From assembly GCA_946482635.1 (NCBI GenBank), contig CAMLSG010000142.1:1-14131 (forward strand): a stretch of DNA of 14,131 nt. The letters are read 5' to 3'. The notes under the pieces are model-generated. The model was not told the origin of the DNA. It ran no database searches and saw only the letters and a program-made list of their open reading frames with translations. The position numbers and the translations under genes are program-made. The DNA is from an uncultured Duganella sp. (GTDB taxonomy: Bacteria > Pseudomonadota > Gammaproteobacteria > Burkholderiales > Burkholderiaceae). Of the stretch, positions 354 to 14,131 are shown in pieces. Numbering within the stretch: position 1 is the stretch's first letter; each line of letters opens with the position of its first letter.

Positions 354-357
354 TGCG

Positions 358-618: not shown

Positions 619-624
619 TATACT
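619..624 (+). promoter_or_regulatory. candidate -10 element for the esterase gene
   Basis: TATACT lies in the divergent gap between the DUF1289 gene and the esterase, about 67 bases before the esterase ATG. There is no good -35 hexamer 16-18 bases upstream, so this is only a candidate. Confidence 0.25.
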
Positions 625-690
625 GATGGGGCACCAGAACAAAAAGGAGTGGCGAGGAGACAACCTGACCAACCAGCCTCCGAGGTGCTT

Positions 691-1659: not shown

Positions 1660-1864
1660 TGCCGTTGGCGATAATCACTGGCCAGGCATTGGTCTGCAGG
1701 CCATAAATCAGCCAGAGCAGCACGCCGAAGCTGAAGATCAGGTACATGCCGGTGGAAATGCCGTCGGCATGACGCTGGCGCCAGACCAGCAGGACTTGGG
1801 GTACAAAAGCGAAAGTGGTGCAGAAGGCGGCGATAAAGCCGAGCAGGTCAGGTTGAAGCAACAT
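1601..1864 (-). CDS. SemiSWEET-type sugar transporter (PQ-loop/MtN3 family)
   Basis: An 87-residue, very hydrophobic protein with three membrane segments (roughly residues 6-25, 38-56 and 62-82). FVPQVLLVWRQR at about 20-31 carries the PQ motif, followed by the typical DGIST turn. SemiSWEETs are bacterial half-size relatives of eukaryotic SWEETs; they dimerise in the inner membrane and pass sugars down a gradient. Length and topology match the family. The start overlaps the 3' end of the CWC gene by 17 bases, which suggests translational coupling, in keeping with the lack of a clear Shine-Dalgarno. Its own 3' end overlaps the convergent esterase gene. The transported sugar cannot be inferred. 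Confidence 0.8.
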   Translation of the reverse strand: MLLQPDLLGFIAAFCTTFAFVPQVLLVWRQRHADGISTGMYLIFSFGVLLWLIYGLQTNAWPVIIANGITLVLALCVLAMKLHFSRR

Positions 1865-2072
1865 CAGGTCGGGTTTCCAGGGAGGCGATATGGGCACGCA
1901 GGCATGCCGGACACCAGCAGCCGACCGCGTCGGCCCCGGGAACGGGAATGGCCGGCGGCAGGAAAGTGCACCAGCACGGCGTCTCGCCCGGCGCCCCGGT
2001 CGGCTTCTGCCCGGCTGGCGCATCGGCCATGGCGCAGTGGAACTCGACGCCGCAACGCTCACAGGTGCTCAT
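1848..2072 (-). CDS. cysteine-rich CWC family protein
   Basis: A 74-residue protein with the layout of the Cys-rich CWC family: CERCGVEFHC at residues 4-13, a CWC triplet in the middle, then CWCPACL near residue 53. The paired cysteines suggest zinc or another metal, but the family has no established function. Pro-rich stretches lie between the cysteine pairs. The ATG at 2072 sits directly before the first Cys pair, as usual for the family. The gene is divergent from argB and ends inside the start of the SemiSWEET gene, so the two are probably one transcript. Confidence 0.75.
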   Translation of the reverse strand: MSTCERCGVEFHCAMADAPAGQKPTGAPGETPCWCTFLPPAIPVPGADAVGCWCPACLRAHIASLETRPDVAST

Positions 2073-2147
2073 ATCATCAATGCAATCATGCGTAAGGGAG
2101 AAGGCCAGACTAGCGGATCAAACCGTAAATTACAACTCGATTGGCCC

Positions 2148-2153
2148 TATAAT
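2148..2153 (+). promoter_or_regulatory. candidate sigma70 -10 element for argB
   Basis: A consensus TATAAT stands 42 bases before the argB ATG in the divergent gap (2073-2195). No convincing -35 hexamer lies 16-18 bases upstream; GTAAAT at 2125-2130 is the nearest candidate. Position and a perfect -10 make it the likeliest argB promoter. Confidence 0.4.
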
Positions 2154-2195
2154 GCGCACCATTGACCTTAAATCTAATTTTCTGGAACCCCCGCC

Positions 2196-3119
2196 ATGAC
2201 CAACCTGCCTGCCCGCGACCCGGATATGTCCACTGACCTGAGCGGCGTTACGCCCCAAGTCAAGGCTCAGATCCTGGCCGAGGCGCTGCCGTACATCCGC
2301 AATTACCACGGCAAAACCATCGTTATCAAATACGGTGGCAATGCCATGACCGAAGAGCGCCTGAAGCACGGCTTCGCGCGCGACCTGATCCTGCTGAAAC
2401 TGGTGGGCATGAATCCGGTGGTGGTGCACGGCGGCGGTCCGCAGATCGACAATGCGCTGAAGAAGATCGGCAAGCAGGGCACTTTCGTGCAGGGCATGCG
2501 TATCACCGACGAAGAAACCATGGAAGTAGTGGAGTGGGTGCTGGGCGGTGAAGTGCAGCAGGACATCGTCATGCTGATCAACCACTACGGCGGCCAGGCA
2601 GTGGGCCTGACCGGCAAGGACGGTGGCCTGATCCGCGCCCGCAAGATGGCCATGCCGGACAAGGAAAAACCGGGCGAATTCCTGGACATCGGCTTCGTCG
2701 GCGAGATCGAGGCGATCAACCCGGCCGTGGTGAAAGCCCTGCAGGATGATGCCTTTATTCCAATTATTTCGCCGATCGGCTTCGGTAAAGATGGCCAGGC
2801 TTACAACATCAACGCTGACGTTGTCGCCGGCAAGATCGCCGAAATCCTGAAGGCTGAAAAGCTGATCATGATGACCAACATCGCCGGCGTGCAGGACAAG
2901 AACGGCAACCTGGTGACCGACCTGTCGGCGCGCGAAATCGACGAAATGTTCGCAGACGGTACGATTTCGGGCGGCATGCTGCCGAAAATCTCTTCCGCAC
3001 TGGACGCCGCCAAGTCCGGCGTGAACACCGTGCACATCATCGACGGGCGAATTGAACACAGCCTGCTGCTGGAAGTCTTGACCGAACAGGCTTTTGGCAC
3101 TATGATCCGGTCTCACTAA
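2196..3119 (+). CDS. argB: N-acetylglutamate kinase
   Basis: A 307-residue amino-acid kinase that phosphorylates N-acetylglutamate, the second step of arginine synthesis through acetylated intermediates, in the cytosol. Seen directly: the glycine-rich nucleotide segment VIKYGGNAM (about 43-51), [11 protein letters not shown] (about 85-95) contacting substrate and [11 protein letters not shown] near residue 138, the YNINAD segment near residue 205, and the C-terminal GGMLPK motif. Length fits the long N-terminal version with a kinase-preceding helix (residues ~17-37), the arrangement of arginine-inhibited hexameric enzymes, so feedback inhibition is likely. The ATG at 2196 follows a weak GGAA; an ATG at 2226 is an alternative. 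A tRNA gene follows 39 bases downstream; no other arg gene is in the window. Confidence 0.96.
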
Positions 3120-3126
3120 AATTTTT

Positions 3127-3146
3127 GGCGGCTTTCAACAGCCGTC
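3127..3146 (+). other. stem-loop between argB and tRNA-Thr
   Basis: GGCGGCT (3127-3133) pairs with AGCCGTC (3140-3146) with one G-U pair and a six-base loop. It begins eight bases after the argB stop and 13 bases before the tRNA. No T-run follows on either strand, so it is not a typical intrinsic terminator. An RNA 3'-end or processing structure is possible. Confidence 0.3.
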
Positions 3147-3158
3147 GAAAACGTGAAT

Positions 3159-3233
<75 letters not shown>

Positions 3234-3239
3234 TTCTCC

Positions 3240-4136
3240 TTAGTAGATTCGCTCTACTTTCACGCCACGCTGGCGCAGCAGTTCCGCAACATTCCCCGAT
3301 CCGACCAGATGCAGAGTGCCGATAGCGGCAAAGCTGTGCTGTTCTTTTTTCATCATTTCCACGATGCCGTCGGCCAGCACGGGATTGCGCTCTTCCAGCA
3401 ACACCTTTTTCATGAATTTGCCGGAGAAGGTCTTGTCCTCCTCCACTTCGCGCGCCAGGGCCTCGAATTTGACGGCATCGGCGGAAGCCCAAGCGTCGAC
3501 CAGGTCGCGCGGCTGCACGCCCTGCTTGCTGTCTTCGAAGGTATCCAGGCTGTCCTCCAGGAAGCGCGCCTGTTCCTGCGGCGTCAGGCGCCCGAACAGC
3601 GCCGCCTGGCCGCCGACCGATTCCAGTTCCACCACTCGCTGGTTGCGGCCATGCGCGGTGCGCGCCAGCTGTAGGTCGACGCCCAGCTCCGGACGGTAGC
3701 CCAGGGCGCGGTATTCGCCGATAGTGATCATCATCACGATCAGCCACGGTTTCATCGACGCCACCATTTCCGGCGCGATGCCGTGTTTCTTCAACATGCT
3801 TTCCAGGCGTGGCCGGTATTCGGGGCGGATCTCGGCCATGGCACTGCCGGTACCTGGCGCATACAGGCCGTACTCACGCATTATCGCCATCGACTTGGCC
3901 GGGTCGGCGGCGGGATCGACTTCCAGCGCCACCGCCGTGGCGCGTTCCATGGCCTGCGTGACGCGCGGTTCGAGCGGGTAGAAGTCGGGCAGGCCAACGT
4001 GGATGGTGCCGAACAGCCACGACGTATGGCCCGCGTATTCCAGCTTGTAGAGCGCGCCGCGCGCCGGCGGGGCGGCAGTGGCCGAAAAGCTCAATCCAAG
4101 CAGCAGGCAAAACATCACTATAATCGTGCGTCGCAT
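3240..4136 (-). CDS. TraB/GumN family protein, exported
   Basis: A 298-residue protein of the TraB/GumN superfamily. A signal peptide is clear: MRRT, a hydrophobic stretch to about residue 18, then an Ala-rich cleavage region ending near SATAAPP. The two hallmark motifs are present: WLFGTIHVGLPD near residue 40 (GxxH) and IGTLHLVGSGN near residue 275 (GxxHxxG), with conserved acidic segments such as VALEVD between them. TraB-related proteins have been proposed to be metal-dependent proteases, and their bacterial substrates are poorly known. The ATG at 4136 is supported by GGAGAG about five bases upstream and by the signal peptide; the longer open frame upstream is antisense to the HAD gene. 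It is divergent from that gene with only 18 bases between starts. Confidence 0.85.
   Translation of the reverse strand: MRRTIIVMFCLLLGLSFSATAAPPARGALYKLEYAGHTSWLFGTIHVGLPDFYPLEPRVTQAMERATAVALEVDPAADPAKSMAIMREYGLYAPGTGSAMAEIRPEYRPRLESMLKKHGIAPEMVASMKPWLIVMMITIGEYRALGYRPELGVDLQLARTAHGRNQRVVELESVGGQAALFGRLTPQEQARFLEDSLDTFEDSKQGVQPRDLVDAWASADAVKFEALAREVEEDKTFSGKFMKKVLLEERNPVLADGIVEMMKKEQHSFAAIGTLHLVGSGNVAELLRQRGVKVERIY
4119..4124 (+). promoter_or_regulatory. candidate -10 element for the HAD gene, inside the TraB-type coding region
   Basis: A consensus TATAAT on the plus strand lies 31 bases before the GTG start of the HAD gene and within the first codons of the divergent TraB-type gene. No clear -35 hexamer accompanies it. 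Confidence 0.3.
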
Positions 4137-4154
4137 AGTCTCTCCAAGTAGAAC

Positions 4155-4826
4155 GTGAATATTAAACCTTTGGCACCGGTCTGGTTGTTCGACCTGGACA
4201 ACACGCTGCACAATGCATCGCATGCCATCTTCCCCGCCATGGTGGAGAAGATGAACGCGTACATGGCGCGCGTGCTGGGCGAAGGCGACACGCCGGCCAG
4301 CGCCCAGGAAATCAGCGCCACCCGCGCCCTTTACTGGCAGCGCTACGGCGCCACCCTGCTTGGACTGGTGCGCCATCATGGCGTGGATGCGGCCCACTTC
4401 CTGCGCGAGACGCACGACCTGCCGGAAATCGAGTCGATGATCCGCTATGAGCGCGGCCTGGGCCAGTTGCTGCGCCGCCTGCCCGGCCGCAAGATCCTGC
4501 TGACCAATGCGCCGCGCGATTACGCGCGCAAGGTGGTCGGGCATATGGGCATCGGCCGGCATTTCAGCGACCAGATCACCATCGAATCAATGCACGTGCA
4601 TCGCCAGTTGCGTCCCAAGCCATCGCGCGTCATGCTGCGGCGGCTGATGCGCCGGAAGGGCTTGAACCCGCGCCGGTGTATCCTTGTCGAAGACACGCTG
4701 GATAACCTGCGTTCGGCGCATGCGCTGGGCATGCGCACCGTGTGGGTGACGCAATACCTGCTGAAACCGGGGAAAAAACCGGCGTGGCTTGATGTCAAAG
4801 TAAAATCTGTCAGAAACTTAAAATAA
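4155..4826 (+). CDS. HAD-family hydrolase, pyrimidine 5'-nucleotidase type
   Basis: A 223-residue HAD-superfamily phosphatase. Motif I FDLDNTL gives the nucleophile Asp13 and acid/base Asp15. Motif II is ILLTNAP near residue 117, motif III Lys is in RPKPSR near residue 155, and motif IV is LVEDTLDN near residue 177. The helical cap at about 20-95 and overall spacing match the pyrimidine 5'-nucleotidase subfamily, which dephosphorylates pyrimidine nucleoside monophosphates. The start is a GTG at 4155, chosen because translation enters the motif-I strand almost at once and no ATG lies nearby. The stop is 14 bases before slmA, so the two are probably co-transcribed. The HAD assignment is certain; nucleotidase specificity is by family resemblance. 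Confidence 0.88.
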   Translation: MNIKPLAPVWLFDLDNTLHNASHAIFPAMVEKMNAYMARVLGEGDTPASAQEISATRALYWQRYGATLLGLVRHHGVDAAHFLRETHDLPEIESMIRYERGLGQLLRRLPGRKILLTNAPRDYARKVVGHMGIGRHFSDQITIESMHVHRQLRPKPSRVMLRRLMRRKGLNPRRCILVEDTLDNLRSAHALGMRTVWVTQYLLKPGKKPAWLDVKVKSVRNLK

Positions 4827-4840
4827 CTGGTCCAAAACCT

Positions 4841-5416
4841 ATGGCAAGTACACAGCCCGGACAGCGCAAGCTGCAAATCCTCCAGGCACTGGCTGAAATG
4901 CTGGAGCATCCAAAAGGAGAAAAGATCACCACTGCTGCGCTGGCGCGCAAGCTGGATGTATCCGAGGCGGCTTTGTACCGCCACTTCGCCAGCAAGGCCC
5001 AGATGTTCGAGGGCCTGATCGAATTCATCGAGTCCACCGTGTTCGGCCTGATCAACCAGATCGCCGACAAGCAGGCGGACGGCCTGGCCCAGGCGCGCGA
5101 CATCCTGGGCATGCTGCTGAATTTCGCCAGCAGCAACCCTGGAATGACCAGGGTGCTGATCGGCGACGCGCTGGTCAACGAAGACGAGCGCCTGCAGCAG
5201 CGCATGAACCAGTTCTACGACCGCGTGGAACTGGCACTGAAACAGGCGCTGCGTGCTGCAGCGGCCGAAGGCCAGGCCCATGAGGCTGACGTCACTGCCC
5301 GCGCCGGGCTGCTGGTCAGCTTTGTGCTGGGCCGTTGGCACCGATACGCCAAGAGCGGCTTCAAGTCGAATCCATCGCATGACGCCGCCGTACAGATTGC
5401 ATTGCTGCTGAATTGA
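4841..5416 (+). CDS. slmA: nucleoid occlusion factor SlmA
   Basis: A 191-residue TetR-type DNA-binding protein strongly resembling SlmA, which binds palindromic sites across the chromosome and blocks FtsZ ring assembly over the nucleoid. The N-terminal helix reads RKLQILQALAEMLE; the helix-turn-helix spans roughly residues 28-58 (ITTAALARKLDVSEAALYRH), followed by SKAQMFEGLIEFIE as in the family. The C-terminal half holds NPGMTRVLIGDALV, also characteristic. Length is close to the enterobacterial protein (198). There is no strong ribosome-binding site at the ATG. The stop overlaps the start of the pabB-pabC gene in TTGA, so the two are translationally linked. A generic TetR regulator is a much less likely alternative. 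Confidence 0.9.
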   Translation: MASTQPGQRKLQILQALAEMLEHPKGEKITTAALARKLDVSEAALYRHFASKAQMFEGLIEFIESTVFGLINQIADKQADGLAQARDILGMLLNFASSNPGMTRVLIGDALVNEDERLQQRMNQFYDRVELALKQALRAAAAEGQAHEADVTARAGLLVSFVLGRWHRYAKSGFKSNPSHDAAVQIALLLN

Positions 5417-7230
5417 ACTGCTTTACCTTTGCTTTGCTGGACGACGCTAGCGTCGATCCAGCCACCGGCGCTGGCCGCTTATCCCGCCTCTACACCGGAC
5501 ATCGCGCTACCCTCGCCTGCGGCGACTTCTCCGGCTGGCCGGGCGTGCTGGCCGGCATGGAGCAGGCGCTCGCACGCGGCTTGCACGCGGTGCCGGTGCT
5601 CAGCTACGAGTTGGGACACCATATCGTGGGCGTCGAGCCGCGCGCTGCCGCACACGACGCGCCGCCATTGGCGCAGGTACTGCTGTTCGAGCGCTGCGAC
5701 GAGCTATCGCAGTCGGAAGTCGCAGACTGGCTCGCAGCCCAGGCCGCAGCCGACACTACACCGGCAGGCGTGGCTGGCATCCGCGCCAATGTGAGCGAAG
5801 CGCAGTTTGTCGACGCCATCCAGCGCATCCGCGATTACATCGCAGCCGGCGACACCTACCAGGTCAACTACACCTACCGCCTGCATTTCGACGCCTTCGG
5901 TTCACTGTTTGCGCTGTACCAGCGCCTGCGCGCCCGCCAGCCGGTGCCTTACGGCGCGCTGATCGGGTTTGACGATGGCCGCGCCGTGCTATCGCTGTCG
6001 CCGGAACTGTTCGTGCGCAAGGAAGGCGGCACGCTGACCGCGCGCCCGATGAAGGGCACCGCGCCCGCTGCCGCCGACGAAGCGGAAAATGCTCGCCGAG
6101 CTGCTGCCCTCGCAGCCGACCCGAAGAACCGCGCTGAAAACCTGATGATCGTCGACCTGCTGCGCAACGATATCGGCCGCGTGGCCGCTACCGGCAGCGT
6201 CGAGGTCCCGAAACTGTTCGAAGTCACGCGCTTCAGCAGCGTGCTGCAAATGACCTCCACCGTGCAGGCCCGCCTGCGCGACGACGCCACGCTGGGAGAG
6301 ATCTTCAACGCACTCTACCCTTGCGGCTCCATCACCGGAGCACCCAAGAAGCGCACCATGGAAATCATCGCCGAGCTGGAACCCGAACCGCGCGGCATCT
6401 ACACCGGCGCCATCGGCTGGTTCGCCCCCGACGGCGATTTCTGCCTGAACGTACCGATCCGCACGCTTACGCTCCATGCGGAGCAAAACGGCATCCGCAA
6501 AGGCGTGATGGGCGTCGGCGCCGGCATCGTCTACGACAGCGAGCCGCATGACGAATTCGCCGAATGCCAGTTGAAGGCCCGCTTCCTGACCGGCCTGTCG
6601 AACGATTTCGAACTGTTCGAAACCATGCATGCCACGCGCGAATCCGGCCCCCGCCATCTGGAGCGCCACCTGCAACGCCTGGCGGCATCGGCGCGCTATT
6701 TCGGCTTTGCCTGGGATGAAGCAGCTGCCCGGGCCTACCTCACGCTGGCTTGCCAGGCCCTGCCAGCCGGCCAGCCGCACCGCCTGCGGCTGGCGATGAA
6801 CAGCGCCGGCGCCTTCGCCGTGCAGACCGGCGCTCTGGCGCCGCTGCAGGAACCGGTTCGCATACTGCTGGCTGACGAAGCCACCGACAGCAGCGACCTG
6901 TTCCTGCGCCATAAATCCACTATCCGCGAACACTACGACGCGGCCTGGAAAGCCGCCGACGCCCAAGGCGCCTTCGACAAGCTGTTCTTCAATGAGCGCG
7001 GGGAGTTGACGGAAGGGGGACGCAGCAATGTTTTCCTCCGCATGGATGGCCTGTGGATAACACCGCCTTTATCCAGCGGCATGCTGCCGGGCGTGATGCG
7101 GGCCGTGATCATCGATGCCTGGGGCGCACAGGAGCGCATCGTCACGCGCGACATGCTGCTCGCCGCGGAGGAAATCGTGGTGTGCAATTCCCTGCGCGGC
7201 GCGATGCGCGCGAGCCTACAGGTCGATTAG
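5413..7230 (+). CDS. pabB: aminodeoxychorismate synthase component I fused to aminodeoxychorismate lyase
   Basis: A 605-residue bifunctional folate-pathway protein. Residues ~1-385 are the chorismate-binding PabB part: PMKGT with catalytic Lys214, NLMIVDLLRNDIGRV, VLQMTSTV, GSITGAPKKRTMEII, then FCLNVPIRTL and a GVGAGIVYDS segment. Residues ~395-605 are a PabC-like PLP-dependent lyase: FETMHATRESGPRHLERHL, the PLP Lys in RHKSTIREHYD (Lys501), and NERGELTEGGRSNVF. Together they convert chorismate plus ammonia to aminodeoxychorismate and then to 4-aminobenzoate and pyruvate; a separate PabA amidotransferase would supply ammonia and is not in this window. The start is a TTG at 5413 overlapping the slmA stop; no Shine-Dalgarno is visible, so reinitiation from slmA is likely. 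The 3' end overlaps the convergent DUF1428 gene by 15 bases. Confidence 0.93.
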   Translation: MNCFTFALLDDASVDPATGAGRLSRLYTGHRATLACGDFSGWPGVLAGMEQALARGLHAVPVLSYELGHHIVGVEPRAAAHDAPPLAQVLLFERCDELSQSEVADWLAAQAAADTTPAGVAGIRANVSEAQFVDAIQRIRDYIAAGDTYQVNYTYRLHFDAFGSLFALYQRLRARQPVPYGALIGFDDGRAVLSLSPELFVRKEGGTLTARPMKGTAPAAADEAENARRAAALAADPKNRAENLMIVDLLRNDIGRVAATGSVEVPKLFEVTRFSSVLQMTSTVQARLRDDATLGEIFNALYPCGSITGAPKKRTMEIIAELEPEPRGIYTGAIGWFAPDGDFCLNVPIRTLTLHAEQNGIRKGVMGVGAGIVYDSEPHDEFAECQLKARFLTGLSNDFELFETMHATRESGPRHLERHLQRLAASARYFGFAWDEAAARAYLTLACQALPAGQPHRLRLAMNSAGAFAVQTGALAPLQEPVRILLADEATDSSDLFLRHKSTIREHYDAAWKAADAQGAFDKLFFNERGELTEGGRSNVFLRMDGLWITPPLSSGMLPGVMRAVIIDAWGAQERIVTRDMLLAAEEIVVCNSLRGAMRASLQVD

Positions 7231-7575
7231 CATTTCGAAGCCGCCATAGATCAACCGTTTGCCGTCAAACGGCATCCTGGCGGGATCCATCATGTCCTTC
7301 ATGCGCGGGTCCGACATGACTTTCTCGTTGCAGGAGTCGCGCACTTCGCGCGATGGATAAATAATCCACGAGAACACAACTACTTCGCCGTCCTCCAGCT
7401 TGACCGCCTGCGGAAAGGAAGTGTGAACGCCCACTTTCACATCGTCGGCGACGGTCTCGCGATACTCGATCGCGCCATATTCGCGCCACACCTTGGCGCA
7501 CTGGCGCGACATCTCCAGGTACGCATCCATGTTCTTGCTGGGAACCGGCACAATGAATCCATCGACATAAGCCAT
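7216..7575 (-). CDS. DUF1428 family protein
   Basis: A 119-residue protein typical of DUF1428, a small ferredoxin-like (dimeric alpha-beta barrel) family of unknown function. Landmarks are MAYVDGFIVPVPSKN at the N-terminus, VWREYGAIEYRE near residue 30, VVFSWIIYPSR near residue 65, and DPRMKDMMDP followed by MPFDGKRLIYGGFE at the C-terminus. The ATG at 7575 has a strong AAGGAG about six bases upstream. It lies 30 bases downstream of the ftrA-like gene on the same strand and is probably its operon partner. The 3' end overlaps the fused pabB gene. Confidence 0.88.
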   Translation of the reverse strand: MAYVDGFIVPVPSKNMDAYLEMSRQCAKVWREYGAIEYRETVADDVKVGVHTSFPQAVKLEDGEVVVFSWIIYPSREVRDSCNEKVMSDPRMKDMMDPARMPFDGKRLIYGGFEMLIDL

Positions 7576-7605
7576 TTGAATCTCCTTGTGAAGTGAGCCC
7601 TCAGC

Positions 7606-8580
7606 TTATGCCGCACGATTGGCCGTGACAAGGAAAGCACGCCGGTATGCGCCCGGCGTGGTTGAGGCAATGCGGCGAAAATGGTGGCGCAGCGACTCTT
7701 CCGAACCGAAACCCGCCCGCTCTGCCACCTGGGCCAGGGCGATGTCCGGCGACTCCAGCAAATCCTTCGCAATCGCTACCCGCTCACGAGCCAGCCATTC
7801 GACCGGTCCCATGCCGGTAGCGTCCTGGAATTGGCGCTGCAGCGTGCGTGGACTCATGGCCGCGCGCTCAGCCATGCTGGCCACCGTATGCGGCTCGGCG
7901 GGATGGCTGCGCAGCCAGTCCATCAGGCGCGACAACCTGCCTTGCTCATCGTGCGCCATGGGACGCGGCAGGAACTGCGCCTGCCCGCCCTCGCGATGCG
8001 GCGCCACTACCAGCCGCTGCGCCACCATATTGCCGACCCGCGCGCCGTAATCGCGCCGCACCAGGTGCAGCAGCATGTCCAGTCCCGCTGCCGACCCGGC
8101 CGAGGTAATGATCTGGCCGTCGTCGACATACAGGTCGTCCGCCTGCACGTGCACGCGAGGATAGCGCCGCCCCAGCCGCTCGACGTAGCGCCAGTGCGTC
8201 GTAGCGCGGCGGCCGTCCAGCAAGCCCGCCGCGGCGAGGATGAATACGCCCGAGCAGATGGTGCACAGGCGGGCGCCGCGCGCATGGGCGGCACGGATCT
8301 GCACCAGCAGGGCTTCCGGCGGCGTCTCGTCGGCATCGCGCCAGCCGGGGATCACGATGGTATCGGCCCGTTCCAGCAGCGATGGATCGTAAGGCGCCTG
8401 CACCACAATGCCGCCCGCTGCGCGGATCGGGCCCGGTTCGACGGCGCAGACGGCAAAGTCGTACCAGTCGACGCCCAACTCCGGGCGGTCCAGGGCAAAT
8501 AGTTCGACCGTGCAGCCGAATTCAAAGGTGCACAGGCCGTCGTAGGCCAGTGCGACGACCAGGTGTTTTTTCGCGCTCAT
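7606..8580 (-). CDS. ftrA: GlxA/FtrA-type transcriptional regulator (DJ-1/PfpI + AraC domains)
   Basis: A 324-residue regulator. Residues ~5-190 form a DJ-1/PfpI-like (GATase1) domain with the Cys109 elbow in CTICSGVFILAAAGLLDG. Residues ~215-315 form an AraC-type double helix-turn-helix (VASMAERAAMSPRTLQRQF and IALAQVAERAGFGSEESLRH), ending in PGAYRR. Full-length GlxA/FtrA-type proteins are transcriptional activators in which the first domain is thought to sense a ligand. The FtrA name rests on resemblance and on the divergent rhodanese gene, which I recall as a common FtrA neighbour; GlxA-family is the safe call. No strong Shine-Dalgarno precedes the ATG at 8580. The 96-base divergent gap is the likely site of control. 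Confidence 0.85.
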   Translation of the reverse strand: MSAKKHLVVALAYDGLCTFEFGCTVELFALDRPELGVDWYDFAVCAVEPGPIRAAGGIVVQAPYDPSLLERADTIVIPGWRDADETPPEALLVQIRAAHARGARLCTICSGVFILAAAGLLDGRRATTHWRYVERLGRRYPRVHVQADDLYVDDGQIITSAGSAAGLDMLLHLVRRDYGARVGNMVAQRLVVAPHREGGQAQFLPRPMAHDEQGRLSRLMDWLRSHPAEPHTVASMAERAAMSPRTLQRQFQDATGMGPVEWLARERVAIAKDLLESPDIALAQVAERAGFGSEESLRHHFRRIASTTPGAYRRAFLVTANRAA

Positions 8581-8581
8581 G

Positions 8582-8596
8582 GCGTAATCTTAACGC
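8582..8596. promoter_or_regulatory. imperfect palindrome beside the ftrA start
   Basis: GCGTAATCTTAACGC has matching outer arms (GCGT/ACGC) with an imperfect centre, two bases upstream of the ftrA-like start in the gap shared with the rhodanese gene. It could be an operator, but such short palindromes are common in GC-rich DNA. Confidence 0.2.
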
Positions 8597-8676
8597 AATA
8601 TGGCATTCGCGCCACTGCCGCGCTAAGCCGCCGCGGCCGAGAATGGAGTCACTTTCAACGCCACAGGAGAAACCAG

Positions 8677-9090
8677 ATGCCATCCATCGTCACTGAAGTC
8701 GCCGCCGCTCCCAGCGCCGAGGCGCTCGCCCACTTTGAAGATTCGCTGCGTTTTGAAACGGATTGCTGGGATGTCCACAGCGTGATGGGCACGGTGCAGC
8801 AGGACTTCGTGCTGCTGGACGTACGGGGAACGGAAAAGTACGCGGCCGGCCACGTACCCGGCGCGGTGGACCTGGCGCACCGCAAGATCATCGGCTCCAA
8901 GCTGGCCGAGTACCCGCCGGAGACCGTTTTCGTGACCTACTGCGCCGGCCCGCACTGCAACGGCGCAGCGCGTGCGGCAATCCGGCTGGCCAAGCTGGGC
9001 CGGCCGGTGAAAATCATGACGGGCGGGATCACCGGCTGGCTGGACGAGGGCTTCGCCCTCGCCACTGCGCCGGTAGCCGCCGCCGCGTAA
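8677..9090 (+). CDS. rhodanese-like domain protein
   Basis: A 137-residue single-domain rhodanese-like protein. VLLDVRGTEKYAAGHVPGAVDLAHRK (residues ~45-70) is the N-terminal half of the fold. VTYCAGPHCNGAARAA (86-101) is the active-site loop, with Cys89 in the position of the persulfide-bearing nucleophile and a second Cys94 nearby. GGITGWLDEGF closes the domain. The first ~35 residues (PSAEALAHFEDSLRFETDCWDV) form an N-terminal extension often present in this group. Rhodaneses transfer sulfane sulfur; the physiological acceptor is unknown. ATG at 8677 has AGGAGA seven bases upstream. It is divergent from the ftrA-like regulator, a probable controller. The stop abuts the convergent peroxidase stop with no spacer. 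Confidence 0.88.
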   Translation: MPSIVTEVAAAPSAEALAHFEDSLRFETDCWDVHSVMGTVQQDFVLLDVRGTEKYAAGHVPGAVDLAHRKIIGSKLAEYPPETVFVTYCAGPHCNGAARAAIRLAKLGRPVKIMTGGITGWLDEGFALATAPVAAAA

Positions 9091-9696
9091 TCAGCCTGCG
9101 AGGGCTTTCTCGAGCGCTTCAACCAGGGCTTTGTCGTCCGGCTTGACCTTGCTCGGGAAGCTCTCGACCACATTGCCCTTGCGGTCGATCAGGTATTTGT
9201 GGAAGTTCCAGGCCGGCGCCTTGCCGGTCGCCTTGATCAGCTTCGCGTAAAACGGGTTCGGCGCATCGCCCGACACCACGGACTTGGCAAACATCGGGAA
9301 TTTCACGCCATAGGTGTTGTAGCAGAGGTCAGCGATTTCCTTGCTGCTGCCCGGTTCCTGCTTGCCGAAATCATTCGACGGGAAGCCCAGCACTACCAGA
9401 CCTTTCCCCGCGTATTTCGCATACACTTCTTCCAGTCCTTTGTACTGCGGGGTATAGCCGCAATAGCTGGCCGTGTTGACGACCAGGATCACCTTGCCGG
9501 TGTACTGGCACAGGTCCTGCGGCGCATCGTCCTGTAGGCGGTTGAAGGACTGTTTCAGGATGGCGGGGCAGCTCGCGGCCGGCGCATTGGCGGCAGTTGC
9601 AACTGCTGGTTGCGCGGCAGGCGCCTGTGCGAAGGCGGCAGCGGCGCTCAGGCTCAGCGCGGACAGCGCTGCAAACTTGGTGAGGATAGATGGCAT
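9091..9696 (-). CDS. glutathione peroxidase family protein (Cys type), exported
   Basis: A 201-residue thiol peroxidase of the GPx family. A signal peptide is evident (MPSILTKF, hydrophobic Ala/Leu stretch, AAAAFAQ at ~19-24), followed by an Ala-rich linker, so the enzyme should act in the periplasm. The peroxidatic site is NTASYCGYTPQYKGLE, with Cys in place of selenocysteine. GFPSNDFGKQEPG holds the conserved Gln, DLCYNTYGVKFPMF has a candidate resolving Cys, and WNFHKYLIDRKG supplies Trp and Asn of the catalytic tetrad. Cys-type bacterial members often use thioredoxin rather than glutathione. ATG at 9696 is backed by GGAAGAG seven bases upstream and by the signal peptide; the 50-residue upstream extension is not used. 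Starts back-to-back with the PHB depolymerase. Confidence 0.9.
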   Translation of the reverse strand: MPSILTKFAALSALSLSAAAAFAQAPAAQPAVATAANAPAASCPAILKQSFNRLQDDAPQDLCQYTGKVILVVNTASYCGYTPQYKGLEEVYAKYAGKGLVVLGFPSNDFGKQEPGSSKEIADLCYNTYGVKFPMFAKSVVSGDAPNPFYAKLIKATGKAPAWNFHKYLIDRKGNVVESFPSKVKPDDKALVEALEKALAG

Positions 9697-9733
9697 GGGT
9701 AGTCTCTTCCGGTTCGTTCGAATTTCCGATTGT

Positions 9734-10702
9734 ATGACAATTGCCGGCTGCACGTTGGCGCTGGCAGCCGCCGCAGCGCCGGCGCCGCTGCCGGCCATGA
9801 AAACGCAGCAGGTGTCGATTTCCGGCCTGTCGTCGGGTGCCTTCATGGCGGTGCAATACCAGGTCGCCTACTCCGGCAGCGTGGTAGGGGCAGGCATCAT
9901 CGCCGGCGGCAGCTACTACTGTGCGCAAGGCAGCATGATGAACGCCGTCGGCAGTTGCAAAGGCGCTGACGTGGCTGAACTGGCAGCCGTGACCCGCAAA
10001 CGCGCGGAAGCGGGCCAGGTAGATCCGGTTGCGAAGCTGGCCGCACACCGCGTGTGGATGTTCTCCGGCACCCTCGACAAGCTGGTGCCTGCAGCCTCAA
10101 TGGCCGACCTGGCCAGATATTACGCAGCCTTTATCCCCGCCGCACAGGTCCAGTTCAAGAGCGACCTGGCCGCCGGCCACGCCATGCCGACCGACAGTTA
10201 TGGCAACAAGTGCGACGCCCTGGCCGCGCCATTTATCAGCAACTGCGGTTTCGACGCGGCCGGCAACCTGCTGCAATGGATCTACGGGCCGCTGAAAGCA
10301 CGCGGCGACAATGCCGCCCCGGCGGGAAAGCTGCAGGAGTTCGACCAGTCCGAATTCCTCCCGGCGCCGACCACGCACGGCATGGCCAACACCGGCTATG
10401 TCTACATTCCACCAGGCTGCGAAGCCGGCGGCACCGGCTGCAAGCTGCACATCGCCCTGCACGGCTGCATGCAGGACATCGGCACCGTCAAGGACACTTA
10501 CGCGCGCCACGCGGGCTACAACGCCTGGGCCGACACCAACCGTATCGTGGTGCTTTACCCGCAAACGGTAGCAATCACCCCGATGCCGAATCCGAAGGCA
10601 TGCTGGGACTGGTGGGGTTATGACGATCCGGACTATTCGGTGCAGGGCGGCCGCCAGCTGCGCGCCATCAAGCGGATGGCTGACCGCCTGACGGGAGCGT
10701 AA
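9734..10702 (+). CDS. PHB depolymerase, type 2 catalytic domain, exported
   Basis: A 322-residue (from this start) short-chain-length polyhydroxyalkanoate depolymerase-like esterase. Motif order is that of type-2 domains: lipase box GLSSGAFM with Ser33 close to the N-terminus, Asp115 in FSGTLDKLVP, His149 in AAGHAMPTDSYGNKC, and the oxyanion segment IALHGCMQD (His243) near the C-terminal part. Six or more cysteines could form disulfides, which fits export. No linker or substrate-binding domain follows, so binding to polymer granules would be weak. The start is uncertain. ATG 9734 gives a signal peptide without positive charge and no Shine-Dalgarno. ATG 9695 adds MGSLFRFVRISDC with two Arg and a GAGG nine bases before it, but overlaps the peroxidase start. 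The 3' end overlaps the convergent kinase gene by 35 bases. Confidence 0.85.
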   Translation: MTIAGCTLALAAAAAPAPLPAMKTQQVSISGLSSGAFMAVQYQVAYSGSVVGAGIIAGGSYYCAQGSMMNAVGSCKGADVAELAAVTRKRAEAGQVDPVAKLAAHRVWMFSGTLDKLVPAASMADLARYYAAFIPAAQVQFKSDLAAGHAMPTDSYGNKCDALAAPFISNCGFDAAGNLLQWIYGPLKARGDNAAPAGKLQEFDQSEFLPAPTTHGMANTGYVYIPPGCEAGGTGCKLHIALHGCMQDIGTVKDTYARHAGYNAWADTNRIVVLYPQTVAITPMPNPKACWDWWGYDDPDYSVQGGRQLRAIKRMADRLTGA

Positions 10703-11666
10703 CCCGGAAGCAGGCGCCATGCTCGCCATTCGGCAGGCATTCGACCTCACCGCCATGGCGGCGGGCGATCTGGCGAACCAGCGCCAGGCCAAGGCCTACA
10801 CTGCCCGCCTTCTCAGAAGCGCCCGGCAGCCGGTAGAAAGGTTCGAAAATCCGCTCGCGCTCAGCCGCCGGCACGCCCGGCCCGCGGTCGCATATTTCCA
10901 GCATGGTGCCGCCGCCGGCGCTGGCCAGCATCACGCTCACCTCAGCCTCACCGCCATGCCGGCGCGCGTTTTCCAGAAGGTTGCGTACCATGCGACGCAG
11001 TAGCGTAGCGTCGCCCTGCACTGCCCCGGCCACGCCATCCAGTGCCGCCCCTACCCGCGCGCATTCTTCCGCGACGATGCCGGTAAATTCCACTTTTTCA
11101 ATCGCTGCACGGTCCTGCGGAACCGCATCCAGGCGGCTCGCCAGCAAGACCTCGTCGATCAGTTGATCCAGTTCGGAGATGTTGCGCGCCAACTCCTGGC
11201 GTATCGCCGGACTGGCGGAATCCTGCAGCAGCTCCACCGCCATGCGAATGCGCGCCAGCGGCGACCGCAGCTCGTGCGATGCATTGGCCAACAGGGACTT
11301 TTGCGCGCCCACCAGCGCTTCGATGCGGGCCGCAGAATCGTTGAAACTTGCGGCCAGTTGGGCTACCTCGTCAGCCCCATGCACATCTACGCGCGCGCCC
11401 AGGTCGCCCCTGCCCCAGGCCTGCACGCTGCCCTGCAGCTGCTCCAGCCGGCGCGTAATGCGGCGCACGACGGGATAGGCGCCCGCTGCAATCACAATCG
11501 CGATCATCAACAGCAGCATCGTCACCGCCATGGTGGCATTGCGCGGCATATGGCGCGGCGGCGCGAACCAGAAGTGGATGTAGCCGAACATCAGCACGGC
11601 CAGCACAATGCAGGCCAGCAGCGTCGCATAAATGCGCACATACATGCGCGAGCCGAAGTTAGGCAT
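10668..11666 (-). CDS. sensor histidine kinase with minimal periplasmic loop
   Basis: A 332-residue membrane histidine kinase. Two membrane segments at about residues 12-34 and 44-67 are joined by only ~9 residues (APPRHMPRN). A HAMP linker follows (about 68-120, with DEVAQLAASFN), then the H-box SHELRSPLARIR with phosphorylatable His131, N-box NLLENARRHG (Asn229, Asn233), G1 DRGPGVP near residue 260, F-box IFEPFYR and G2 GLGLALV. With no periplasmic domain it resembles intramembrane-sensing kinases, or it may sense through partners in the membrane. The ATG at 11666 overlaps the regulator's stop by eight bases and has AAGGTG upstream; ATG 11645 is an alternative. It is the third gene of the Spy-like/regulator/kinase operon and should phosphorylate that regulator. 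CpxA-like in setting, but lacks CpxA's periplasmic domain. Confidence 0.92.
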   Translation of the reverse strand: MPNFGSRMYVRIYATLLACIVLAVLMFGYIHFWFAPPRHMPRNATMAVTMLLLMIAIVIAAGAYPVVRRITRRLEQLQGSVQAWGRGDLGARVDVHGADEVAQLAASFNDSAARIEALVGAQKSLLANASHELRSPLARIRMAVELLQDSASPAIRQELARNISELDQLIDEVLLASRLDAVPQDRAAIEKVEFTGIVAEECARVGAALDGVAGAVQGDATLLRRMVRNLLENARRHGGEAEVSVMLASAGGGTMLEICDRGPGVPAAERERIFEPFYRLPGASEKAGSVGLGLALVRQIARRHGGEVECLPNGEHGACFRVTLPSGGQPSA

Positions 11667-12414
11667 CCTGCACCTTGGCGAAGACATATCCCGCACCACG
11701 CACGGTAATGATGCGGCGCGGCGCCTTCGGATCATCCTCAATAGCGGCGCGCACCCGGCCCACGTGCACATCAATGGAACGGTCGAAAGGCTCCAGCGCT
11801 CCCCCTTTCAGCGCGTCGATCAACTGTTCGCGCGACAGCACGCGGCCGGCACGCTGGGCCAAGGCCATCAAGAGGTCGAATTGGTATGCGGTCAGCGGCC
11901 GCTCGGCACCGTCGACCCGCACGACACGCGCACCGGGATCGATTTCGAGGCGGCCAAAGCGCAGCGGCGGCTCGGCGACAGGCTGCCCGGATGCTGTCGC
12001 TCCCGCAGCACCGCCGGCATCAGCCAGCGCCGGGCGGCGCAACAGCGCCCGCAGGCGTGCCAGCAACTCGCGCGGCTCGAATGGCTTCGGCAAGTAATCA
12101 TCGGCGCCCAGCTCCAGGCCAATGACGCGATCGAGCGGGTCCCCCTTGGCCGTCAGCATCAGCACCGGAAGGCTGCGCATCGGCTGCGGCATGTTGCGCA
12201 GGCGGCGGCAGACTTCCAGCCCATCGACGTCGGGCAGCATCAGGTCGAGGATCAGGGCGGAAAAGCCTCCTGCCTCGGCCTGCGCCAGCCGGTCCAGGCC
12301 GGCCTGCGCGGTTTCGGCGTGCTCCACGCGCAGGCCATTTTGGGCCAGGTAAGTTTCAACCATCGCCGCCAGGCGCTGGTCGTCGTCGATGATGAGGACA
12401 AGGGGTTGGGACAT
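11659..12414 (-). CDS. OmpR-family response regulator, CpxR-like
   Basis: A 251-residue response regulator. The receiver domain (1-120) has the acidic pocket DDD at 10-12, phospho-acceptor Asp57 in LILDLMLPD, Thr88 and Lys110. The winged-helix DNA-binding domain occupies about 155-248, ending RGAGYVFAKV. Several stretches closely resemble CpxR: LDRVIGLELGADDYLPKPF, RELLARLRALLRR and LEPFDRSIDVHV. A longer-than-usual Ala/Gly-rich linker (about 128-150) separates the domains. It probably binds the GTAAA-N5-GTAAA element upstream of the Spy-like gene, making the operon self-regulated; that is inference. The start is fixed by the family N-terminus MSQPLVLIIDDD; no good Shine-Dalgarno is visible. 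It lies 15 bases after the Spy-like stop and overlaps the kinase start. cpxR is a plausible name, but orthology is not shown. Confidence 0.93.
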   Translation of the reverse strand: MSQPLVLIIDDDQRLAAMVETYLAQNGLRVEHAETAQAGLDRLAQAEAGGFSALILDLMLPDVDGLEVCRRLRNMPQPMRSLPVLMLTAKGDPLDRVIGLELGADDYLPKPFEPRELLARLRALLRRPALADAGGAAGATASGQPVAEPPLRFGRLEIDPGARVVRVDGAERPLTAYQFDLLMALAQRAGRVLSREQLIDALKGGALEPFDRSIDVHVGRVRAAIEDDPKAPRRIITVRGAGYVFAKVQDA

Positions 12415-12429
12415 GGTTGAGACTATAGC

Positions 12430-12915
12430 TTAATGGCTCCCCATGTGGCTCATCGCCATCATGTGCAGGGCGCCGTTGAACTTCGCGCGCTGTTCGGGCG
12501 TGAGGACTTCGGCGGCATCCATCGCAGCAGCCAGCACGCGGCGCGACATCAGGTCCATTTTTTTCATGTGGTCAGCGCGCAGGGTTTCCAGCGCGGCGCG
12601 ATCGATGGCTGGCTGCGCCAACTGCTTGTGCATCGCCTCATGCCCCTCCTGCAACTGCTGGTGGATCGGCTTTACGTCGTTGAAGCAGGCCCTGGCAATT
12701 TCAGTCAGGCGCGATTTCTGGGCCTCGGTTGCGTCGGGCAGGATGTGCGCCACCATGGTTTCGATGTGCTTATCCGCCTGGGCAGCGTCCATCGTCCATG
12801 GACTGTGTCCACGACCGTGGCTATGGCCGCTTCCATGGTCCGCGCCGGCATAGGCGGCGGTACCGCCCAGGGTGGCGACAACTGCGGCGATTGCGATCCA
12901 GGACTTCTTGTTCAT
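12430..12915 (-). CDS. Spy/CpxP-family periplasmic chaperone-like protein, His/Met-rich
   Basis: A 161-residue exported helical protein of the Spy/CpxP (LTxxQ) family. A signal peptide MNKKSWIAIAAVVATL..AYAG is followed by a His/Gly-rich segment (residues 24-37, five His). The LTxxQ motif is clear at 138-142 (LTPEQ) and degenerate at 59-66 (LPDATEAQ). The C-terminus is rich in Met and His (HMMAMSHMGSH). Spy and CpxP are ATP-independent periplasmic chaperones; CpxP also restrains the CpxA kinase, and relatives such as ZraP bind zinc. A chaperone or kinase-modulating role with metal binding is inferred. ATG at 12915 has AGGAGA six bases upstream. First gene of the operon with the regulator and kinase, preceded by CpxR-type repeats. 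Confidence 0.88.
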   Translation of the reverse strand: MNKKSWIAIAAVVATLGGTAAYAGADHGSGHSHGRGHSPWTMDAAQADKHIETMVAHILPDATEAQKSRLTEIARACFNDVKPIHQQLQEGHEAMHKQLAQPAIDRAALETLRADHMKKMDLMSRRVLAAAMDAAEVLTPEQRAKFNGALHMMAMSHMGSH

Positions 12916-12972
12916 GACATCTCCTAATAAGGGTTAGTGGGTATGGCCACTTTAGGGAGCACGCATGTCGCC

Positions 12973-13001
12973 TCTATGAGTCCTGCGTAAAGTTTTGTAA
13001 A
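12973..13001 (-). promoter_or_regulatory. candidate promoter of the Spy-like/regulator/kinase operon
   Basis: On the minus strand TTTACA (complement of 12996-13001) and CATAGA (complement of 12973-12978) are 17 bases apart, a sigma70-like spacing with a poor -10. The -35 coincides with one half-site of the CpxR-type box, the geometry expected for activation by an OmpR-family regulator. Confidence 0.3.
12987..13001 (+). promoter_or_regulatory. CpxR-type box (GTAAA-N5-GTAAA)
   Basis: A perfect direct repeat GTAAA (12987-12991) and GTAAA (12997-13001) with a five-base spacer matches the published E. coli CpxR consensus. It lies in the 207-base gap between the Spy-like operon and the small-protein array, 72 bases from the Spy-like start. 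The adjacent CpxR-like regulator is the likely binder. Confidence 0.6.
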
Positions 13002-13013
13002 TCTGCGACAAAT

Positions 13014-13028
13014 GTAAGGGTTTGTAAT
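13014..13028 (+). promoter_or_regulatory. second, degenerate CpxR-type box
   Basis: GTAAG (13014-13018) and GTAAT (13024-13028) repeat the same half-site with the same five-base spacing, 27 bases from the first box. It could be a lower-affinity site serving the rightward small-protein genes, the first of which starts 95 bases on. Confidence 0.35.
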
Positions 13029-13122
13029 GACCGTCAACATACTGCTGAGTGAGCCCGTTTTCAGCTCAGTGACACAGGAAACAGTGCGCTACACAAGATC
13101 AACTAATAGTGAGGATTTAAAA

Positions 13123-13308
13123 ATGAAAAAAGTCATCGCCACCATGATCGCCGGTCTGTTCGCAAGCGCCGCATTCGCACAACAAACTCCTGCCCCAGCT
13201 ACCCCAGCGGTCCCGGAAGTAAAGGCTGAAGTAAAGGCTGAAGTCAAAGCCGAAGTCAAACAGGAAGTGAAGCAGGAAGTTCAGAGACCTGCCGCTGAAA
13301 AGAAGTAA
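13123..13308 (+). CDS. small exported Lys/Glu/Val-rich repeat protein (array member 1)
   Basis: A 61-residue protein. A signal peptide MKKVIATMIAGLFASAAFA with cleavage before QQ is followed by a short Pro/Ala segment and then six imperfect four-residue units of the type EVKA/EVKQ (residues 32-55), ending in RPAAEKK. The mature part is only about 42 residues, highly charged with alternating Glu and Lys, without aromatic residues or Cys, and so likely disordered or an extended helix in the periplasm. I do not recognise a named family. Its signal peptide is clearly related to those of the next three genes. The start is chosen because GAGG lies eight bases upstream and the signal peptide begins there; a longer frame from 13027 adds 32 residues without merit. 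First gene of a probable operon. Confidence 0.75.
   Translation: MKKVIATMIAGLFASAAFAQQTPAPATPAVPEVKAEVKAEVKAEVKQEVKQEVQRPAAEKK
13216..13287 (+). repeat. 12-base tandem repeat inside array member 1
   Basis: Six imperfect units beginning GAAGT encode EVKA, EVKA, EVKA, EVKQ, EVKQ and EVQR. The first two units are identical; the rest differ mostly at third positions, so the repeat is old enough to have diverged while keeping the protein pattern. Confidence 0.8.
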
Positions 13309-13359
13309 TCAACTAACTAGCTAAACGATTTACATAATTTCTTCCAAAGGACACGCACC

Positions 13360-13662
13360 ATGAAAAAGACCATCGCTACCCTGATCGCCGGCCTGTTCGC
13401 TACCGCTGCTTTCGCTACCACCCCAGCCGCTCCGACCACGCCAGCGCCAGCAGCAACTCCTGCAGCAGCCGTCGCAGCCACCAGCGCCAAGGCTGAAGCC
13501 AAGGTAGAAACAAAGGTCGAAGCCAAGACCGAAGCAAAAGCCGAGAAGAAAACCGAGCACAAAGGCACGCACAAGAAAGCTGAAAAGCCTGTCGAAACCA
13601 AATCCGAAGTGAAGGCGAGCACCACCACCGCCGCCGCGGCTCCTGCGCCAGCAGCCAAGTAA
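13360..13662 (+). CDS. small exported Ala/Lys/Glu/Pro-rich protein (array member 2)
   Basis: A 100-residue protein. The signal peptide MKKTIATLIAGLFATAAFA is followed by a Thr/Pro/Ala segment (20-42), then an alternating charged tract with Lys and Glu every second residue (about 44-66), a His/Lys block TEHKGTHKKAEKP (about 65-77), VETKSEVKAS, and an Ala/Pro tail ending AAK. No Cys, Trp or Tyr. Composition and layout recall E. coli Asr (acid-shock protein: signal peptide, Ala/Pro/Lys/His-rich mature part), but there is no convincing alignment, so Asr-like is only a comparison. AAAGGA lies nine bases before the ATG. Same strand as member 1 with a 51-base gap and no terminator seen, so probably co-transcribed. 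Confidence 0.8.
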   Translation: MKKTIATLIAGLFATAAFATTPAAPTTPAPAATPAAAVAATSAKAEAKVETKVEAKTEAKAEKKTEHKGTHKKAEKPVETKSEVKASTTTAAAAPAPAAK

Positions 13663-13708
13663 TTCTCGCCAGCCAGCTTAAATACTGATGATTAAAAGGA
13701 CACACACC

Positions 13709-14017
13709 ATGAAAAAGACTATCGCTACCCTGATCGCCGGCCTGTTCGCTACCGCTGCTTTCGCTACCACCCCGGTTGCTCCAACCACTCCAGCGCCGGC
13801 AGCGGCACCTGCAGCTGAAGCCAAGGTAGAAGCGAAAGCCGAAGCCAAGACCGAAGCAAAGGTCGAAAAGAAATCCGTGCACAAAACCGCACACAAGAAG
13901 GCAGAAAAGCCTGTTGAAACCAAGTCTGAAGTGAAGGCGAGCCCGGCTGCGACCACGGCCGCGGCGCCTGCACCGGCTGCAGCCCCGGCCCCTGCCGCAG
14001 CTCCTGCAGCCAAGTAA
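13709..14017 (+). CDS. small exported Ala/Lys/Glu/Pro-rich protein (array member 3)
   Basis: A 102-residue close paralogue of member 2. The signal peptide is the same at protein level, the charged tract is shorter by several residues, the block HKKAEKPVETKSEVKAS is identical, and the Ala/Pro tail is longer (APAPAAAPAPAAAPAAK). Length changes fall only in the low-complexity parts. The ATG at 13709 is preferred over one seven codons upstream because AAAAGGA precedes it at the same distance as in its paralogues and because the signal peptide begins there. The gap from member 2 is 46 bases, without a terminator-like hairpin. Function unknown; a periplasmic protective or buffering polyampholyte is a guess from composition. 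Confidence 0.8.
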   Translation: MKKTIATLIAGLFATAAFATTPVAPTTPAPAAAPAAEAKVEAKAEAKTEAKVEKKSVHKTAHKKAEKPVETKSEVKASPAATTAAAPAPAAAPAPAAAPAAK

Positions 14018-14064
14018 TCTTCGTCAAACACGCAGCCCCAAATTCGACTTAAAGGAATCACACC

Positions 14065-14131
14065 ATGAAAAAGACCATCGCTACCCTGATCGCCGGCCTG
14101 TTCGCTACCGCTGCTTTCGCTACCACCCCAG
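14065..14131 (+). CDS. array member 4, signal peptide only (3' end outside window)
   Basis: The first 22 codons of a fourth paralogue, cut by the window edge. The 67 bases present are identical to the first 67 bases of member 2. AAAGGA precedes the ATG nine bases upstream, as in members 2 and 3, and the gap from member 3 is 47 bases. The mature part cannot be described. Confidence 0.75.
   Translation, partial: MKKTIATLIAGLFATAAFATTP

Follow-up and report, generated by a model that had tools for sequence, protein, structure and literature searches.

A tandem array of small exported charge-alternating proteins in Duganella behind a shared promoter with predicted OmpR-type and ECF-type elements

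The array and its genes

The stretch analysed here (the window) comprises 14,131 nucleotides from an uncultured Duganella sp. (assembly GCA_946482635.1, contig CAMLSG010000142.1, positions 1 to 14,131 of the forward strand). Its end (13123-14131) holds a tandem array of three complete genes and the beginning of a fourth, all on the + strand, which encode small exported proteins and lie behind a shared promoter (Table 1). Each gene starts with ATG at the first position given in the table, the intergenic gaps measure 51, 46 and 47 bp, and the ribosome sites read AAAGGA ahead of genes 2-4 and AGGA ahead of gene 1. The signal peptides, which were called from the sequence alone with support from an AlphaFold helix for gene 3 only, are identical in all four proteins at 16 aligned positions. 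The mature parts are composed chiefly of Ala, Lys, Glu, Pro, Thr and Val. An original prediction, made from the letters of the window, had described this same-strand array with its near-identical signal peptides and AAAGGA-type ribosome sites as well as the His/Lys blocks of genes 2 and 3, and it was right in each of these respects. It was also right that the array runs beyond the window, the end of which cuts gene 4. In the closest relatives, Duganella sp. Root1480D1 (locus L001) and Root336D2 (L002), whose gene 3 is 97% and 95% identical to that of the window, the array consists of exactly four genes of 61, 88-95, 102-106 and 96 aa, and a copy number of four is inferred from them for the source genome of the window. 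In Root1480D1 a hairpin, GGCCTCTTCGAGCACGAAGAGGCC, was spotted by eye on the 3' side of gene 4, followed by a 537-aa gene (10760-12373) whose product we take to resemble a PhoD-type phosphatase.

The array frames evolve as proteins and are held by purifying selection. The ratio of nonsynonymous to synonymous substitution rates is 0.03-0.18 for gene 1 over ten pairs of five genomes; three pairs each give 0.15-0.26 (gene 2), 0.05-0.08 (gene 3) and 0.04-0.13 (gene 4). Two neighbours serve for comparison, the response regulator with 0.03-0.06 and the Spy-type gene with 0.11-0.15. The DNA encoding the signal peptides of genes 2-4 (13360-13416, 13709-13765 and 14065-14121) is almost invariant, and genes 2 and 4 share all 57 signal-peptide bases with one another and with a Massilia eburnea gene (L008:10001). 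This may have come about by gene conversion or by selection on early codons; homogenisation of this DNA within genomes was looked for and was not clearly demonstrated. A plasmid origin of the array was rejected on finding no match among 72,556 plasmids, either by protein or by promoter DNA.

Table 1. Features of the array, its promoter and its neighbours in the window
Feature	Position	Strand	Remarks
Sensor histidine kinase beside RR1	10668..11774	-	Best NCBIfam match RstB, 172 bits (below cut-off 478)
OmpR/RstA-type response regulator RR1, possible local regulator	11659..12414	-	PF00072, PF00486; 15 bp after Spy-type gene
Spy/CpxP-type periplasmic protein, divergent	12430..12915	-	PF13801 53.1 bits (cut-off 29.2), PF07813 38 bits (cut-off 24.3)
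Direct repeat TGTAAGGGTTTGTAA, TGTAAG-N4-TGTAA, 10-bp period, OmpR/RstA-type box	13013..13027	+	Single match in window, 0.01 expected
GTCAAC, predicted -35 of ECF-type promoter	13033..13038	+	Same hexamer as mutagenised SigAb -35 (PMC12153292)
CGTTTT, predicted -10	13056..13061	+	Spacer exactly 17 bp; SigAb -10 is CGTT with 17-bp spacer
Gene 1	13123..13308	+	61 aa; signal peptide and Lys/Glu polyampholyte, no His
Gene 2	13360..13662	+	100 aa; signal peptide, Ala/Pro/Thr stretch, Lys/Glu tract, His/Lys block
Gene 3	13709..14017	+	102 aa; layout as in gene 2
Gene 4	14065..14131	+	First 22 codons only, cut by window end; 96 aa in Root1480D1 and Root336D2

The shared promoter

The original prediction of an exported, locally expanded polyampholyte family stands, and what it missed is the key feature of the locus, a shared promoter just upstream of gene 1 that points to an OmpR-type regulator and an extracytoplasmic function (ECF) sigma factor. 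The promoter was followed through 75 loci that were obtained from the best 80 of 134 confirmed matches in a scan of genome contigs and were selected for their signal peptide without regard to the promoter. These loci are mutually related and span several genera (Duganella, Pseudoduganella, Massilia, Janthinobacterium, Rugamonas, Telluria, one Herbaspirillum, one Mycetohabitans and several metagenome-assembled genomes), and counts over them are not independent events.

The first element is a direct repeat which on the - strand reads as the RstA box TACAN6TACA (13013-13026, the single occurrence in the window, 0.04 expected). The classic RstA box is TACAN6TACA (PMC4117788), and the OmpR motif GTTACANNNNGTTACA resembles it, with common targets and overlapping motifs being reported for RstA and OmpR (PMC7315122). 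Like these enterobacterial boxes the repeat of the window is a 10-bp direct repeat, but its half-sites are TGTAAG and TGTAA and it lies 5 bp ahead of an ECF-type -35 element. There are 93 exact TACAN6TACA sites in the 1.41 Mb of the 75 loci, and 77 of them are located no more than 200 bp upstream of the first family gene of an operon and in the orientation seen in the window, where 0.83 would be expected from uniform placement; their median distance to the ATG is 98 bp. One further site precedes a family gene in the opposite orientation and 15 lie elsewhere, including two (L052 and L075) that also precede genes of the family kind, for which the count was left unchanged. No exact site precedes any of the 62 internal family genes, and the strict repeat occurs within 260 bp upstream of only 3 of 2114 control frames (open frames of at least 150 aa in all six frames, family neighbourhoods included). 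Positions that were not imposed by the search are likewise fixed over 73 distinct sites, which yields TGTAAG-N4-TGTAA. Counting the window, there are 191 family genes, of which 136 reside in 78 operons headed by the exact repeat; 31 of these operons contain one gene, 38 two, seven three and two four, where the sizes depend on the filter for family genes and the truncated gene 4 of the window is uncounted. Local expansion of this kind may reflect dosage demand or diversification, as the original prediction had suggested. In the 2.81 Mb of Root1480D1 that were searched (about 42% of 6.6 Mb), TGTAAN5TGTAA occurs six times compared with 0.89 expected by base composition, with one copy each preceding ompR, a lone family gene and the array and the remaining three lying in other places.

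The second element emerged when the sites were aligned by the repeat, as a conserved block of GTCAAC, 17 bp and CGTTTT. GTCAAC begins 20 bp after the start of the repeat in 54 of 74 pairs and 21 bp after it in nine. In the window the core GTCAAC-N17-CGTT is found only at 13033-13059 (0.01 expected). The longer form with CGTTTT occurs 86 times in the 75 loci, always with a spacer of 17 bp although spacers of 10-24 bp were tried, and the form with CGTT occurs 113 times with this spacer compared with 18 times for the other spacings of 12-22 bp together. Of these 113 sites 108 precede a family gene; the start codon had to lie within 200 bp of the site on its downstream side, or a listed start within 60 bp on its upstream side. 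Expressed per gene, 108 of 126 operon-first family genes carry the core: none of the 13 in a subfamily of about 155 aa and 108 of the remaining 113. Among control frames the number is 14 of 2114. A subfamily with AVLVNN-like mature starts does not have the exact repeat and yet retains the core in eight of eight cases. When the full profile including a downstream block is applied to Root1480D1, its two family promoters score 49.1 and 42.8 and the next site 13.7. The anatomy of the promoter and its concentration on the family are supported by sequence.

Several observations accompany the promoter. The further conserved block, tGCtcagtgacac.Gg.Aac, follows the -10 at the predicted transcript start (13062-13090 in the window and in related loci). 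In Root1480D1 (L194:3887) the core lies 49 bp before the gene of an exported protein of 94 aa, rich in Ala, Ser and Lys, whose signal peptide differs from that of the family and which is possibly a further member of the regulon. The Lys/Ala-rich subfamily of about 155 aa shares the signal peptide and has neither the repeat nor the core (0/13; L021, L025, L036, L044, L045, L050, L054-L057 and L067-L069). No standard sigma-70 promoter was detected by a consensus scan of L001 9240-11000, and a conserved RNA structure in the 5' leader was rejected at z = 0.72 relative to shuffles for the single leader sequence of the window.

Charge pattern and disorder

The charged tracts of the array proteins alternate Lys and Glu at every second residue, as the original prediction had noted. 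Genes 1-3 contain 11, 16 and 13 such pairs at spacing 2, while 20,000 shuffles of the same composition give means of 2.3, 3.1 and 2.5 and maxima of 8, 10 and 10. Over the 129 distinct mature parts of box-led operons, opposite charges are enriched 3.19-fold at spacing 2 and depleted to 0.34 of expectation at spacing 4. The DNA shows degenerate 12-bp repeats, which are the probable source of the alternation. Salt-bridged single alpha-helices and late embryogenesis abundant-like proteins are likewise Ala/Lys/Glu-rich and of low complexity. The salt-bridged helix requires opposite charges at spacing 4, however, which is where the family is depleted, and it was rejected as a structure for these proteins. 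The proposal that all charges lie on one face of an extended strand is correct in its geometry, but an AlphaFold model of gene 3 contains no strand. This model has a mean pLDDT (predicted local distance difference test score) of 52, was built from an input of four sequences only, and shows helix at residues 2-17, the signal peptide, and nowhere else; it agrees with disorder and is weak evidence for it.

Aromatic residues are nearly absent from the mature parts (1 of 129) and Cys is absent altogether. The computed median net charge of the 129 mature parts rises from +7.2 at pH 7.5 to +16.1 at pH 4 (textbook pKa values), and the three complete proteins of the window carry +0.8 to +4.9 at pH 7.5.

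Extent and naming of the family

Filtering by signal peptide and composition yields 188 family genes, which stand singly or in runs in 70 of the 75 loci. Together with the selection on the frames, these relatives bear out the idea of a functional family. A profile search of 145 genomes gives matches in 116; since it used a low-complexity profile and yielded many weak matches in unchecked frames, the result is not used as a distribution. One odd match (G069) is a frame of 782 aa, the length of which is due to a run of N; in the 3.6-kb stretch that was fetched, the repeat stands beside a Spy-type gene and the run of N follows.

None of the array genes of the window reaches a Pfam or NCBIfam cut-off. 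Among 36 family members Pfam reports only DUF6153 and a CCDC90-like family at E<=0.01, in one member each. PF27998.1 is precomputed on some database relatives (3/13 and 4/37), a Pfam scan of three of them did not report it, and the family may already hold this Pfam number. Literature searches in a library that lacks most subscription papers, with exact signal-peptide strings, with descriptive phrases and with Janthinobacterium combined with disordered proteins did not find a description of the family. A palindromic site, TGTATTGCAATGTA, is present once in each of eight Massilia/Telluria loci and away from family genes (L009:2597, L023:2683, L029:1726, L030:3560, L037:267, L047:455, L053:5280 and L070:5876).

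Comparison with Asr

Asr, the acid shock protein of E. coli, is described as a disordered periplasmic chaperone that serves outer-membrane integrity (PMC10746267, citing others), and its gene is activated by RstA, which binds the RstA box of asr (PMC11135836). Like the family, Asr (NF033636) is small, exported and rich in Lys, Ala, Pro and Thr, lacks Cys and has an RstA-type box some 100 bp ahead of its start codon; the box ends 103 bp before the ATG in E. coli and about 96 bp before it in the window (13027 to 13123). It differs in being more basic (about +14 at pH 7.5, compared with the values given above for the window proteins), in containing little Glu and, in E. coli MG1655, in being encoded by one gene and not by an array. 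Asr had been named as nearest in composition, and in kind it is the nearest. Membership by sequence was rejected: with model NF033636, which has a cut-off of 50 bits and gives E. coli Asr 102 bits, gene 1 of the window scores 17.2 bits; of 36 family members no more than three reach E<=0.01 (best 7e-4), and the signal peptide alone aligns in a profile comparison. The family would resemble Asr in how it works; by these models it does not belong to Asr. Upstream of asr in MG1655 (L076:3232-3259), ATCAAC-N16-CGTTTG is a near match to the core that begins 145 bp before the ATG and touches the RstA box from its upstream side, possibly by chance.

Neighbouring genes

The Spy-type gene and the array diverge from a common intergenic region of 207 bp. 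RR1 is matched best by OmpR among NCBIfam models (222.6 bits, below the cut-off of 331; RstA 155), while the best matches of its DNA-binding half in PDB are RstA 2naz (81 bits), Klebsiella pneumoniae RstA (66.6) and OmpR (62.3). The start of the kinase is uncertain, its listed frame overlapping RR1 by 116 bp. In three loci (L080, L081 and L083) an orthologue of RR1 that lies away from the array has a Spy-type gene nearby as well, and Spy, RR1 and kinase may therefore form a module of their own.

Interpretation

The interpretation that we favour, with a confidence slightly above even, is that the array and its family are disordered exported protectors of the cell envelope, functionally similar to Asr, behind a composite promoter of ECF and OmpR type. 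The four genes would form one operon of small exported proteins. Its promoter GTCAAC-N17-CGTTTT would be read by an ECF sigma factor with a specificity like that of SigAb, and activated by an OmpR-family regulator, most likely OmpR and possibly together with RR1, that is bound to TGTAAG-N4-TGTAA just upstream of the -35. The inducing stress may be acid, osmotic or metal. Once in the periplasm, the proteins would remain unfolded and, much as Asr is described to do, protect the envelope or envelope proteins from stress, for instance through a net charge (family medians about +7 at pH 7.5 and about +16 at pH 4) that rises with acidity.

AAC and CGT are a general signature of ECF promoters (PMC4153023). 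For SigAb, an ECF sigma factor of Acinetobacter, mutagenesis defined a -35 of GTCAAC, a -10 of CGTT and a spacer of 17 bp, where 16 bp has little effect and 18 bp lowers activity about threefold (PMC12153292). The window promoter has these predicted SigAb-type elements in bases and in spacing, and the core motif was derived before it was compared with that of SigAb. The regulons differ in content, in that SigAb of Acinetobacter baumannii targets sigAb itself, relA and a small RNA (PMC12153292) whereas the core here precedes genes of small exported proteins in Betaproteobacteria. No claim is made that the core is unpublished outside Acinetobacter.

A number of observations weigh against this interpretation. 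SigAb is described as specific to Acinetobacter (PMC12153292), and the core, which autoregulation would place before the sigma gene, stands upstream of no sigma gene among 29 sigma-family loci of Root1480D1; one ECF-like gene (L245) contains the core string inside its coding frame. GTCAAC-N17-CGTT occurs 14 times in the 2.81 Mb of Root1480D1 and only two of the sites are family promoters (two of four for the CGTTTT form), and the short core alone is therefore not specific genome-wide. Thirteen first genes with the CGTTTT core carry the repeat only with one mismatch. The recognition residues of RstA that are found in RR1 occur in OmpR too, and therefore cannot tell RstA from OmpR. As regards Asr, the box of E. 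coli asr has the opposite orientation, no exact GTCAAC is found within 260 bp upstream of asr, where there is the near match only, and neither model scoring nor profile comparison found kinship in sequence.

One alternative concerns the action of the proteins. They could be structural polycations or polyampholytes that bind peptidoglycan, lipopolysaccharide or an exopolysaccharide matrix and are not chaperones, with the stress promoter tuning surface charge. OmpR-family control is typical of envelope genes, and a mature part that is rich in Lys, Ala and Pro with hardly an aromatic residue and no Cys would suit such a role. Against this, neither a binding motif nor an anchor could be recognised, and Pfam gave no match at cut-off. 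No evidence separates structural binding from an Asr-like action, and we consider it rather unlikely.

A second alternative, which we likewise hold to be somewhat improbable, assigns the repeat to the neighbouring RR1 and its kinase in place of OmpR. The window and L001, L002, L008 and L042 have RR1 as a divergent neighbour of the array, in G069 the repeat stands beside a Spy-type gene next to RR1, and the DNA-binding half of RR1 is nearest to RstA entries in PDB. Its distribution speaks for OmpR. With an identity of at least 62%, RR1 is found in 14 of 24 genomes (7/9 and 7/15, hand-picked from those of the 75 loci), whereas an OmpR-like regulator (46-47% identity) is found in all 24; in six of the ten genomes with no RR1 match only 150 first-look candidates were scored, such that an RR1 may have been missed there. 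Nine of these ten genomes still carry the exact repeat before family genes, on which grounds RR1 was rejected as the sole regulator. Two of the OmpR-like copies were scored with the OmpR equivalog model and exceed its cut-off of 331 at 418.6 bits each; the other 22 are assigned by match alone. Reading the DNA directly, the repeat is also found before the gene of the OmpR-like regulator itself in five of five fetched loci. OmpR is favoured because it is present in all 24 genomes, because the repeat precedes its gene and because RR1 is absent from the matches listed for ten of them; it is most likely the regulator of the repeat, and RR1 may act in addition. At the ompR site of Root1480D1 (L104:19697) a divergent 118-aa frame, the start of which resembles a signal peptide, begins on the other side of the repeat, 83 bp from it.

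The same promoter could also serve metal-binding or metal-buffering proteins, which would use their His/Lys blocks in a response to copper or other metals, with the Spy-type protein and the two-component system as partners. SigAb responds to copper (PMC12153292), the Spy-type neighbour matches PF13801, named 'Heavy-metal resistance', and genes 2 and 3 possess the blocks. However, gene 1 has no His, His makes up a mean of 2.9% of the mature parts of box-operon members and Cys occurs in none. A match to PF13801 is no proof of metal binding, and no more than four of the 75 loci (L001, L002, L008 and L042) have the Spy-type gene and RR1 next to the array. We consider a metal response distinctly improbable.

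It is likewise distinctly improbable that the conserved blocks are not an ECF promoter at all, with GTCAAC as a third half-site of the repeat and CGTTTT as part of another element: the 20-bp offset of GTCAA is in step with the 10-bp period and the motif is upstream of no sigma gene among the 29 sigma-family loci of Root1480D1, but the subfamily that has no exact repeat keeps GTCAAC-N17-CGTT in all eight cases, and the published core of SigAb is identical in bases and spacing (PMC12153292).

Significance

The presence of a large family of soil-bacterial proteins in Oxalobacteraceae, most of them behind a stereotyped promoter of stress type, suggests, as far as sequences can, an envelope-protection system that has gone unrecognised. 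A wider proposal, which we put forward tentatively and at somewhat less than even confidence, is that Oxalobacteraceae possess an undescribed envelope-stress system in which a betaproteobacterial ECF sigma factor of SigAb specificity acts together with OmpR. This system would act chiefly on a single, rapidly diversifying family of exported proteins, disordered and alternating in charge, that corresponds to Asr in expanded form. If so, more than 100 operons of small and mostly unnamed low-complexity genes would be tied to one predicted stress promoter, which would in turn provide a rule for finding more of them. A sigma factor specificity described as restricted to Acinetobacter would be extended to another bacterial class, and the paralogues would constitute a natural series in which the influence of charge pattern on the activity of disordered periplasmic proteins could be tested.

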